Positions 10,750 through 45,149 of a stretch of DNA of 64,000 nt are shown here, one piece after another. Position 1 is the stretch's first letter. Each line of letters opens with the position of its first letter. A model generated the notes under the pieces. It saw nothing but the letters and a program-made list of their open reading frames with translations. It made no database searches and was not told the DNA's origin. A program made the position numbers and the translations under genes. This DNA is from Dysgonomonas sp. HDW5A (lineage in GTDB: Bacteria; Bacteroidota; Bacteroidia; Bacteroidales; Dysgonomonadaceae): the NCBI RefSeq assembly GCF_011299555.1, contig NZ_CP049857.1, forward strand, positions 124,001 to 188,000, given 5' to 3'.

Positions 10750-12471
10750 ATGGGTCTGAAAATAGATAAAACCAAATATGTCGGAATGTATGGTCCGACC
10801 ACAGGAGACAAAGTGCGCTTGGGCGATACTGAAATAATTGTTGAAATAGAAAAAGACTACACCGTATATGGTGAGGAAAATAAATTCGGTGGTGGTAAAA
10901 CTATCCGTGACGGAATGGCTCAATCAAGTGTGGCAACACGCGACCAAGGGGTTTTAGATATGGTAATAACCAATGTTATCATCATAGACCACTCAGGCAT
11001 CGTGAAAGCTGACTTGGGTATCAAAGATGGTAAGATTGTAGGCATAGGTAAAGCAGGAAATCCAGACACTATGGATGGTGTTGCTCCAAATATGATTATT
11101 GGTGCTTCGACTGAAGTTCATGGAGGTCAAGGTCTAATTGCTACTGCAGGTGCTATTGATACACATATCCACTACATCTGTCCACAACAAGTAGAACATG
11201 CTTTGTATAGCGGTACAACTACAATGATAGGTGGTGGTACAGGTCCGGCTGACGGAACAAACGCAACAACTGTAACTCCGGGACCATGGCACATCGAGCG
11301 TATGCTTCAAGCATTGGAAGGTCTGCCTATGAATTTCGGTCTATTCGGAAAAGGTAATTCATCAACCGAAGCTCCACTAATAGAACAAATAGAAGCAGGA
11401 GCTTTAGGCTTGAAACTTCACGAAGACTGGGGAACATCTCCTGCAACTATCGATACAGCTTTGAAAGTAGCTGACAAATACGATGTTCAGATAGCTATCC
11501 ACACAGATACTCTGAATGAAGCAGGATTTTTGGAAGATACGATGAACGCCATCAACGGTCGTGTAATACATACATTCCACACCGAAGGTGCGGGTGGAGG
11601 TCACGCTCCTGATATTATCAAGATTGCTATGTATCCTAATGTATTACCTGCATCTACTAATCCTACACGTCCTTATACAGTAAATACAATAGACGAGCAT
11701 CTTGATATGTTAATGGTTTGTCACCACTTGAAACGTACTATTCCCGAAGATGTATCATTTGCCGATTCACGTATCAGACCCGAAACTATTGCTGCCGAAG
11801 ATATTCTTCACGACATGGGAGTATTCAGTATCATGAGTTCCGACTCACAAGCAATGGGACGTATCAGCGAAGTAACTATACGTACTTGGCAAACAGCTGA
11901 TAAGATGAAAAAACAAAGAGGCCCATTAGCTGAAGACGACGGTAAAGGAAATGATAATTTCAGAGCAAAAAGATATGTAGCAAAATACACTATCAATCCG
12001 GCTATAGCACAAGGTATTTCTCAATATGTAGGATCAATTGAACCCGGTAAATTTGCCGATATCGTATTATGGAAGCCAGCTTTCTTCGGTGCAAAACCTG
12101 AGATTATTATCAAGGGAGGTATGATGATTGCTGCACGTATGGGTGACCCTAGTGCATCTATTCCTACACCTCAACCGGTTATGTATCGTAATATGTTTGG
12201 TGCATACGGCAAAGCTCTTAATAAAACATGTATCACTTTCGTATCAAAAGTATCTTACGATAACGGAACTGTACAAGGATATGGTTTAGAAAAAACACTT
12301 CTACCTGTTTCAGGATGTAGAAATGTATCTAAGAAAGATCTTATTCATAATGACAAGACACCCGAGATTACAGTAAATCCCGAAAACTACGAAGTAAAAG
12401 TAGACGGTGTTAAAATCACTTGTGAACCTGTGGATACAGTTCCATTAGGACAACGTTACTTCCTTTTCTAA
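10750..12471 (+). CDS. ureC: Urease alpha (catalytic) subunit UreC
   Basis: Catalytic subunit carrying the two-nickel centre, 573 residues, full length. Residues expected from the Klebsiella enzyme are all present, offset by about five: nickel ligands His139 and His141 ([10 protein letters not shown]), the lysine that is carbamylated to bridge the metals (Lys222, [12 protein letters not shown]), [26 protein letters not shown], the mobile-flap Cys324 with catalytic His325 (MVCHHL), and the nickel ligand Asp365 (SSDSQAMGR). The enzyme should therefore be active once loaded by UreEFGD. A strong hairpin (12493-12526) separates it from ureE. Confidence 0.99.
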
Positions 12472-42746: not shown

Positions 42747-43556
42747 TTATTTGGGCAAATTGAAAGCCTCTTTCAAAGCTTGCATATCTGCCATAGAAGT
42801 ACCTTCGGGCTCGAAGCCCATCGATTTAGCTGTCAGATATATTTGTGCCGATTTCGAAAGGGTATCCACCATATCGAATGCTTCCATGATGTTTTCACTA
42901 ATGGAACATACACCGTGCTTCTCCCACATTACTACATCGTAATTTTCCAGTGCTTTTACCGTAGCCTCAGCCAACTCTATAGAGCTAGGCATTAGATAAG
43001 GTATAATACCTAATCCTTTAGGACAGAAAGCTCTGGTTTCGGGAATCATACTCCAGAGAAGATAAGTAAGCTTATCTTTTTCTAAAAATGCTCGGTTATG
43101 AGTCATAGCTATCAAATCAATAGGATGCGTATGTAACGCCGCCTTATAATTAGATCCGCTACCAATCATATAATCGTGCATGGATAGATGTGACGGTAAT
43201 TCGGATGTCGGGCGAACGGGATTATCCGCTATAATTTCGTAGCTGTTACAATCGTCGCCGATACGAATTACAGCACCATTCTCCATAGGCCAGCGAGCCA
43301 AATCACGCATACGCATATTGGTTCCCTTACAGAAAAAATAGCATCCTTTCAAATTGGGAAGAACTTTTCCAATTACATATTTCTCACTGATCGGTTTCAT
43401 GTTTCTGATTTCATCATCCACCAGATCCGTGATGTTTATTGTGATATTTCCACCATTGCGTTCAGCCCATCCTTTTTGCCAAAGGTAGCCCGCTACTTCT
43501 GCCACTTCCCATACTTTTTTGGCAAGTTCCGGACGGTTATCTAATATTGATTTCAT
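42747..43556 (-). CDS. rhaD: Rhamnulose-1-phosphate aldolase
   Basis: Zinc-dependent class II aldolase that splits L-rhamnulose 1-phosphate into dihydroxyacetone phosphate and L-lactaldehyde. It has 269 residues. Zinc ligands by analogy with E. coli RhaD are His142 and His144 (LHTHPIDL) and His214 (WEKHGVC), with Glu119 as the catalytic base (PTSELPSH). AERNGGNITINI is the phosphate-binding block. It belongs to the rha operon, but a 455-bp repeat-like element separates it from rhaT upstream. Confidence 0.96.
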   Translation of the reverse strand: MKSILDNRPELAKKVWEVAEVAGYLWQKGWAERNGGNITINITDLVDDEIRNMKPISEKYVIGKVLPNLKGCYFFCKGTNMRMRDLARWPMENGAVIRIGDDCNSYEIIADNPVRPTSELPSHLSMHDYMIGSGSNYKAALHTHPIDLIAMTHNRAFLEKDKLTYLLWSMIPETRAFCPKGLGIIPYLMPSSIELAEATVKALENYDVVMWEKHGVCSISENIMEAFDMVDTLSKSAQIYLTAKSMGFEPEGTSMADMQALKEAFNLPK

Positions 43557-43585: not shown

Positions 43586-43651
43586 ATTTAAGTAATACTT
43601 TAATGTTATATTTTTAAGTTATAACTAATGCCAGTTGGTAGTTGATATTAT

Positions 43652-44106
43652 ATGTTCTATTTTTACTAACGCACCCTATGGGTTTGTTTTTCATTTTGCC
43701 TTGATGCAAAACGAAACAAAAGATCAAGACTATGCCTCTTTGCCCGACCCGCTACGGTCTCGAAAGCTAAAACAAAAGAAAACGTTTAACGTTGATACCC
43801 TTTCGTTTCTTAACGCTTTCTTCATCCTGCGGGTACCCCGTGCAACTGGCAAGGTCGGTAACCTAACGGATGACAAGCTTTTGCGTGCGTCAGCCCAAGT
43901 GCATCAGTGGAGTAGCCGTTGGCTGACAAGCAAAGCAGGCGTAAAACTAAACGTGCCGATAGGCAATAAGTTTAGTTTAGACCGCAAGCTTAAGGCAGGC
44001 AGGAGAGCCACGCAGCACAAAGCCTTTTTGATTCCTTTTGTGGCTTTGGGCAAAAGGAATACAAGCAATCTTCGATTGCGCGTAGTAAAATAATAAAATA
44101 GAACAT
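43652..44106. mobile_element. MITE-like non-coding element with terminal inverted repeats inside the rha operon
   Basis: The ends are inverted copies. The left end starts ATGTTCTATTTT (43652-43663) then TACTA. The right end, read in reverse, starts ATGTTCTATTTT (44106-44095), then a short insert and TACTA. The 455-bp interior is visibly richer in G and C than the flanks and contains small hairpins: TTTTGC/GCAAAA near 43694-43711, CTTGAT/ATCAAG near 43701-43729, CAAAGCC/GGCTTTG near 44020-44047, and GCAATC/GATTGC at 44064-44078. A 152-codon + strand frame (43635-44093) has no recognisable protein features and lies antisense to the operon, so I treat it as spurious. No transposase is present. 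It resembles dispersed non-autonomous repeats. Confidence 0.6.
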
Positions 44107-44120
44107 TAAACATACACATC

Positions 44121-45149
44121 TCACAAAAGGTTAGGCAGCACTAATGAAAATATAAGTATAGCCATACCCAATATGAGTACCATAATTGTTTTCTGACCTG
44201 TACCTTTCCATTCTTTCAGAACAATTCCCCAGATATTGCTGCATATCACATTGAGCGACATAAGTATACTCCACGAGAAGGCAATCATAATACTACCCGG
44301 TTCGAAGAAGCTTTTACCCATTCCCAATGCAAAAAACTGAGAATACCACAATATACCGGCTAAGACACAGAATAAAGTATTTCGCACCAATAATCCCGAA
44401 GGAGTAGTAAAAATTTGTCCCGAAGTACCATTCTTTTTATTTTGCCATACGCAATATATAAGGTTGGTAAGAAAACCGCCGATTGTAACCAAAAGAGTTA
44501 CGGGATTCTGGGTAAAGAATGAATTTGCTCCAAGCTCCATTACTCTTTGCTGAATAGGTTCACCCGCATTCAATCCCAAGCTGAAACAGGCACTCATTAC
44601 ACCTGCAAGCAGAGCTACAAGCAATCCTTTTTTCAAAGCAAAGTCTTTGACTGCTTTCTTCTTTTCTTCTTCGGTCATATCCTTCGATCTCAAAGAACCT
44701 GCATAACCGATCGTTGCAATACCTGCCAAAGTGATACAAACACTTATCAGGAGAATTACTCCATCACCGGACAGTAAATCGTTACCACTAAGCACAGCAG
44801 GAATAAGTGTTCCGAAAGCCGAGCAAGTACCCAAGGCGATAGATTGCCCCAATGCAACCCCCAAATAACGCATACTCAAACCGAAAGTCAAACCTCCAAT
44901 GCCCCACAAAACACCATAAAAAATGGTTTTCAGAGTAGCGGCAGATTCTATCGAATATACGTCAATTAACGACTGGAAGTTTGTAGCCAATAAAGCTCCC
45001 AAGAAAGGGAATACTAACCATGCAAACACCCCTTGAACCAACCAGAAGTTTTCCCAAGACCAATCTTTGACCTTATTAATGGGAACATACGAGCTGGATT
45101 GACCCAAACTTCCTATCGCTATTATAATCAGACCTATTAATGTATTCAT
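44121..45149 (-). CDS. rhaT: L-rhamnose-proton symporter
   Basis: Inner-membrane transporter of 342 residues with about ten hydrophobic helices, matching RhaT of enteric bacteria in length. Characteristic segments are SSSYVPINKVKDWSWENFWL at the start, GVLWGIGGLTFGLSMRYLGV, and NSFFTQNPVTLL. Its ATG overlaps the rhaA stop codon by four bases (ATGA), indicating coupled translation. It imports free L-rhamnose released by the GH106 enzyme in the periplasm or outside the cell. Confidence 0.95.
   Translation of the reverse strand: MNTLIGLIIIAIGSLGQSSSYVPINKVKDWSWENFWLVQGVFAWLVFPFLGALLATNFQSLIDVYSIESAATLKTIFYGVLWGIGGLTFGLSMRYLGVALGQSIALGTCSAFGTLIPAVLSGNDLLSGDGVILLISVCITLAGIATIGYAGSLRSKDMTEEEKKKAVKDFALKKGLLVALLAGVMSACFSLGLNAGEPIQQRVMELGANSFFTQNPVTLLVTIGGFLTNLIYCVWQNKKNGTSGQIFTTPSGLLVRNTLFCVLAGILWYSQFFALGMGKSFFEPGSIMIAFSWSILMSLNVICSNIWGIVLKEWKGTGQKTIMVLILGMAILIFSLVLPNLL

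Follow-up and report, generated by a model that had tools for sequence, protein, structure and literature searches.

The interval between rhaT and rhaD in Dysgonomonas sp. HDW5A raises the question of whether the repeat-like DNA found there is a mobile element, a functional RNA, or one kind of element carried inside another. Within the 64,000-nucleotide stretch analyzed here (hereafter the window), a first-pass annotation had placed a 455-bp MITE-like element with terminal inverted repeats at positions 43652-44106, and had proposed either a non-autonomous mobile repeat or a structured RNA domain. The element does lie between the two genes which that annotation had named rhaT (44121-45149, minus strand) and rhaD (42747-43556, minus strand), names that are kept here unchecked against family libraries. 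Its repetitive nature, its folding, and its location all held up on closer analysis, while its borders did not, the true mobile unit being longer.

The sequence is not a single-copy one, as a search of the 4.30-Mb host genome with the 455-bp query returned 47 matching places, including 32 near full length, at 79-100% identity. The copy search gave 67 candidates, of which 40 were scored; 40 loci (L001-L030 and L049-L058) were taken into the copy analysis and 32 copies were aligned. This alignment displayed a conserved core running from CTAACGC to GCGTAG and flanked by variable A+T-rich arms, outside which lies a degenerate repeat, ATGNNAATCAGTAGTTG (the outer repeat). Because the outer repeat sits beyond the arms, the 12-bp sequences previously taken for the ends of the element are better described as inner arms, located between shell and core. 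They are present as reported, with ATGTTCTATTTT at 43652-43663 (plus strand) and its inverse, AAAATAGAACAT when read on the plus strand, at 44095-44106, and the transposon ends lie further out. The TACTA said to follow both arms directly adjoins the left one only, as seven bases (ATTATTT) intervene on the right.

Aligning the copies thus defined the ends of the mobile unit as the 17-bp repeat ATGNNAATCAGTAGTTG, and its target duplication as 5 bp. Both outer repeats could be recognized with ≤3 mismatches at 17 of the 40 loci, and an exact 5-bp target duplication was found at 12 of these 17 two-ended copies (mean 1.2 and maximum 5 with shuffled partners, n = 2000) and was absent from the other five. 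Eleven of the 12 clean copies measured 507-520 bp, and the remaining one 543 bp. All 20 exact occurrences of AATCAGTAGTTG in the host genome adjoin listed copies. In the window, the mobile unit starts at 43628 with the left outer terminal inverted repeat ATGCCAGTTGGTAGTTG (43628-43644, plus strand; 3 mismatches to ATGNNAATCAGTAGTTG). The right terminal repeat is lost or degenerate near 44107-44116, where a shell remnant (TAAACATA..) can be seen and the right border is approximate, so that the target duplication is unreadable at this copy.

As first reported, the element holds no credible protein. Only two frames, of 152 and 71 codons, lie inside it, and the longer one was rejected as an unlikely gene because gaps of one or two bases between copies shift its frame. 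On crude gene calls, copies are mostly intergenic, and an open frame of ≥100 codons spans the element at three of the 40 loci (L001, L006, L053), the one at L001 being presumably the same 152-codon frame. Separately, one copy in the host genome (L025) has a B half (213 bp) 93% identical to a Dysgonomonas alginatilytica copy, to which five other host copies are 72-84% identical; L025 may be a chimera or a transferred copy.

Comparison with rha operons lacking the insert revealed an empty site. In a close relative of the same genus (G005), whose RhaD and RhaT are 98% identical to those of the host, the rhaT-rhaD gap is 60 bp, compared to 564 bp in the host. Twelve joined flanks were searched against this genome and that of D. 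alginatilytica DSM 100214 (G001). Both genomes are contiguous across the insertion site of L002, a 507-bp copy, with an exact match and a single AAAAT in D. alginatilytica, and the L016 site is contiguous in G005, loosely aligned at the junction; the other joined sites gave one-sided or repetitive matches, or none. An L016-site insertion shared with D. alginatilytica was considered and rejected, since the G001-type copy sits at a slightly different place, and is probably an independent insertion judging from its position. Taken together, the element is multi-copy, dispersed, short, and without a transposase, with terminal inverted repeats, a duplication of fixed length, and empty sites.

The insertion lengthens the rhaT-rhaD interval by about 500 bp, and the reduced or altered rhaD expression suggested earlier is a plausible, still putative, consequence. 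A further step would be that the element was recruited as a regulator of the rha operon, acting as an attenuator or processing site, for which its position between two co-directional genes, strong hairpins on the transcribed strand, and one terminator-like site (44065-44079) could be cited. However, a single such site is no more than chance predicts (shuffles: mean 0.7, sd 0.9), copies are present at about 40 further genomic sites, and, at E-values up to 0.01, the element matches none of the 11 other rhaD loci that were fetched. We therefore consider recruitment into rha regulation very unlikely.

If the element is non-autonomous, the transposase that moved it should be sought behind the same ends. 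The outer repeat was also detected near contig ends in D. alginatilytica and in genome G018, and in relatives it is followed by a reading frame starting with MIPKKKELKLIKIY. The first 117 codons of one of these insertion sequence (IS) copies match 7 of 61 genomes (E-values up to 1e-20), which do not include that of the host, and a full-length transposase likewise had no match in the host genome at E-values up to 1e-3, with a query that had no positive control. Three full IS copies encode proteins of 299-303 aa and have ATGCGAATCAGTAGTTG-type ends. NF033520, the NCBIfam model of the IS982 family, was by far the best family for all three (109.5, 109.2, and 114.7 bits). All three miss its cut-off of 130 bits, and the IS is therefore called IS982-like, a family name given by resemblance. 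A Pfam scan of one of the three proteins (L241) yielded DDE_Tnp_1_3 at 28.1 (cut-off 27) and DDE_Tnp_1 at 27.6 (cut-off 23). Eight IS loci were examined, six of which have both ends; 5-bp duplications flank three of these six (L241, L244, and L246) and are absent from the other three.

MITE and IS thus match in terminal ends and duplication length. By eye, the terminal repeat is all they have in common, so that the MITE cannot be explained by a simple deletion within the IS. In none of the 61 genomes did a search for exact 12-bp ends spaced 600-660 bp apart detect a larger unit. Two short elements with AATCAGTAGTTG ends were also observed in another genome (G008), at about 280-553 of L226 and about 210-452 of L227, measuring 274 and 243 bp from one outer 12-mer edge to the other and having hairpin-rich interiors unrelated to the host MITE. 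From their ends, these are probably further MITEs of the same system. Given the IS copies of relatives and these G008 elements, the IS982-like system appears to have made more than one kind of MITE.

Overall, the reading of the element as a non-autonomous mobile repeat has strong support: the element is multi-copy, has terminal repeats and 5-bp duplications, is missing from corresponding sites in relatives, and shares its ends with an IS found in relatives. A single-copy sequence devoid of relatives, the outcome that would have refuted the first-pass annotation, was not what the searches showed. As far as sequence comparison can establish it, the MITE reading is confirmed and its partner IS is identified. 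We conclude that the rhaT-rhaD gap of this Dysgonomonas-lineage genome very probably contains an inserted, non-autonomous IS982-type MITE of about 0.5 kb. In the mechanism we propose, an IS982-like transposase would have mobilized the element by binding to its ATGNNAATCAGTAGTTG ends in trans; the transposase would later have been lost while copies decayed, with the rha copy losing its right end. The MITE family of the host genome is probably now stranded. The 420-bp core would be cargo, i.e., a hairpin-rich repeat bounded by two inverted pseudoknot modules.

The question then becomes what this cargo is. In the window, the core (CTAACGC...GCGTAG) spans 43666-44085, and its G+C content (47.1%) exceeds that of the left gap (22.5%) and of the window (37.4%), in line with the GC-richer interior noted at first. 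All internal pairs listed in the first-pass annotation are present, and the region folds better than 100 of 100 shuffles on both strands (z = -4.2 on the plus and -6.4 on the minus strand). Both core ends share one inward-facing plan, in which a terminal hairpin is followed by an H-type pseudoknot whose stem 1 is TTCNTTTTG/CAAAANGAA and whose third loop is A-rich. In the B end (plus strand), the terminal hairpin ACCC-TAT-GGGT (43673-43683) precedes the pseudoknot module (43690-43728), within which stem 1 pairs TTCATTTTGC with GCAAAACGAA around an A.C mismatch at 43693/43712, and stem 2 pairs CTTGAT (43700-43705) with ATCAAG (43723-43728), again with an A-rich third loop. The A-end module (44018-44060, minus strand), formed by ATTCCTTTTG/CAAAAGGAAT together with CAAAGCC/GGCTTTG, is inverted relative to the B module and lies next to the terminal hairpin GCAATC-GAA-GATTGC (44065-44079, minus strand). 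Across these folded ends, stem 1 often includes an A.C mismatch or a bulge. In the cores of relatives, the ends are kept and the middle varies, two copies in genome G017 having little beyond both ends. In a number of host copies, substitutions disrupt or shorten stem 2 of the A end, and the B-end stem 2 of genome G023 is unrecognizable by eye; both observations speak against the pseudoknot being strictly required. In addition, by eye, the A-end pseudoknot loop of one D. alginatilytica locus (L223) is interrupted by a G/C-rich palindromic repeat.

This structure is conserved, as double compensatory changes were found at 35 of 108 core pairs, compared to 4 and 7 in controls with slid partners (13 cores from five genomes; 19 loci were tried, and six failed the end patterns). 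Such conservation, along with the strong minus-strand folding and the compensatory changes that the pseudoknot displays across the phylum (see below), could mean that one strand of the core gives rise to a functional structured RNA, which the MITE shell would carry or to which it would have been added secondarily. The A-rich third loop of the forward pseudoknot would suit this reading, although that loop is largely fixed by the search patterns. A selected RNA should also favor G-U over A-C changes on its own strand, and folds in which G-U pairs were allowed do lean this way, with G-U:A-C ratios of 122:27 on the minus and 51:27 on the plus strand between species, and 315:62 and 113:50, respectively, within the genome. 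These folds were given less weight because their G-U pairs are picked by the folding itself. By contrast, the two kinds of change are about equal in helices called without G-U pairs, at 28:24 between species (25:25 in the fold of the other strand) and 43:45 within the genome (29 cores), which argues against a functional RNA from one strand.

Other lines of evidence go in the same direction. The two pseudoknots are oppositely oriented, and no single transcript would therefore have both in the same form. Copies are not biased in orientation relative to genes on crude gene calls, with 13 and 12 in the two tandem settings (n = 25), 12 in divergent, and three in convergent settings. Rfam covariance models gave one hit in the window, located elsewhere than the element, and only rRNA and tRNA hits at 16 further loci, none over a module; a permissive Rfam search added two chance-level matches. 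The structure is conserved and shows compensatory changes, while the strand bias, gene-orientation bias, and Rfam match expected of an RNA were not found, and the suggested RNA domain is thus weakly supported. The missing strand bias removes a single structural RNA from the position of leading reading, and we consider a functional RNA of this kind unlikely. As for the Rfam hit elsewhere in the window, it is a match to 5_ureB_sRNA (10906-11200, minus strand; 71.9 bits), antisense inside a frame (10750-12471, plus strand) that we take to be a urease alpha subunit. If, as we presume, this Rfam family is antisense to ureB, then homology of the gene explains the score, and the match is not evidence of an sRNA at 10906-11200.

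A structure without strand preference most likely reflects either a role as folded DNA or a mutation process in which template switching corrects palindromes, rather than one RNA. Between these two, the frequent A.C mismatch at the B end would argue for some form of recognition, because correction alone would erase it.

To evaluate how widely the module is distributed, a B-module pattern with free positions was searched in a collection of 84,980 species, in which it matched at least 119 stretches. Among the matches listed, all 80 loci were assigned by their titles to Bacteroidota or Balneolaceae. Three pair types occurred at the free stem-1 pair, which was Watson-Crick in 85 of 88 distinct modules (shuffle mean 35.2, maximum 50), as was the free stem-2 pair (85 of 88, three types; shuffle mean 38.2, maximum 54; 5000 shuffles). 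These 88 modules come from 79 loci among the matches listed, and modules of related species are not independent; with one module per locus, 76 of 79 were Watson-Crick for each free pair. At the mid-stem position, A.C was found in 144 and C.G in 55 of 224 distinct modules. In 0.61 Mb made up of loci preselected for the module, a scan for such pseudoknots identified 91, whereas the reversed sequence contained none. With a looser pattern, 67 occurrences were detected in the host genome and none in the control, and 17 matches in 11 of 147 other genomes of the phylum, compared to two in controls. By eye, some of these 17 are not this module, which is therefore patchy in the phylum. Overall, on the basis of shared sequence and pairing, the B-type module is part of a Bacteroidota-wide family.

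The setting of the module differs between these genomes. While host copies are dispersed, local series of direct module copies were observed in Chryseobacterium gregarium (L135; four copies, 355-557 bp apart) and Mesonia hippocampi (L145; five copies, 427-2326 bp apart). Several Dysgonomonadaceae cores and four loci (L112, L128, L156, and L175) display, by eye, a second common piece downstream of the module, made up of a long stem whose loop includes AACTC...CTCAAACAG. A phage origin was considered and found no phage match, and a plasmid origin was also set aside, as five Persicobacter plasmid records match the B module only.

Another possibility is that the IS982-type shell encloses, in its core, a second element that can move or invert independently, recognized for example as folded single-stranded DNA. 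Shell types could be scored on both sides in 13 of 40 copies (12 mixed, one type II on both sides), at least one side being unscored in 27, and relative to the same shell types the core was found both ways round (5 vs 7 among 12 scorable host copies). By eye, core relatives in genome G017 have other flanks, and the sole exact AATCAGTAGTTG in that genome belongs to the IS itself. Similarly, within the 70 bases preceding the module in other Bacteroidota, the outer repeat could be made out by eye in Dysgonomonas records only. Both core ends also follow the same hairpin-plus-pseudoknot plan, and the A.C mismatch of the B end is conserved. However, searches with exact patterns, among them 10-bp ends separated by 30-60 bp in six genomes of the genus, detected no empty shell, and no transposase-like protein recurs beside the modules: among 80 loci, four clusters of three to four loci represent recurrent proteins, none transposase-like by eye. 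Flips may also arise via the short inner arms or by recombination between copies. We regard such a nested element as quite conceivable, though on balance improbable. More broadly, we tentatively propose, as a rather doubtful extension, that the core may represent an undescribed, Bacteroidota-wide class of folded DNA repeat, whose ends would be recognized by a putative recombinase or host factor, and which would invest different shells and flip inside them, here riding in an IS982-type MITE. No title or abstract start describing the module was found among those listed from the openly accessible literature.

Several known systems resemble parts of this element. One is found in Cardinium, presumably also a Bacteroidota genome. 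Its MITECca01 is an IS982-derived MITE of about 240 bp (PMC9769881) and, like the element described here, is a short non-autonomous repeat with IS982-family-like ends, no transposase, and many copies. In the available part of the same source, MITECca01 has an intact parent IS in the same genome, short parent sequence beside its ends, and no pseudoknot core, whereas the host element is about 510 bp long and has a structured core, with no parent found in the genome. BrickBuilt (MITE464/MITE239) of Porphyromonas gingivalis is a MITE that trapped another repeat (PMC4596501), and likewise a MITE-like element of Bacteroidales with a trapped repeat, predicted stem-loops, and ends common to an IS, in that case resident in P. 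gingivalis. According to the part of that paper available, however, the matching IS is of the IS5 family, with GAGAC... or ACGTC... ends that do not resemble ATGNNAATCAGTAGTTG, the duplications are of differing length, and the internal repeats are tandem and of 23 or 41 bp.

Inverted hairpin modules are also a feature of REP/BIME elements, which RAYT tyrosine transposases mobilize. Here, as in REP/BIME, a GTAG stands beside the foot of the hairpin, by chance or by descent; relative to the hairpin, the REP tag is on the opposite side from the one seen here. Unlike REP/BIME, the host unit has terminal repeats and 5-bp duplications, and it differs in size, REPs being 20-40 bp (PMC3733652). The word pseudoknot is absent from a 2025 REP survey (PMC12306157). 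IS982-derived MITEs (PMC9769881) and MITEs with trapped repeats (PMC4596501) are thus already known, as far as the accessible text of these sources goes, and the part worth following is the core family, whose pseudoknot module, with its clean compensatory changes, is found repeatedly in Bacteroidota repeats. If this module is recognized as a folded structure, it would be a phylum-wide recognition element without a known reader, and that reader can be sought.
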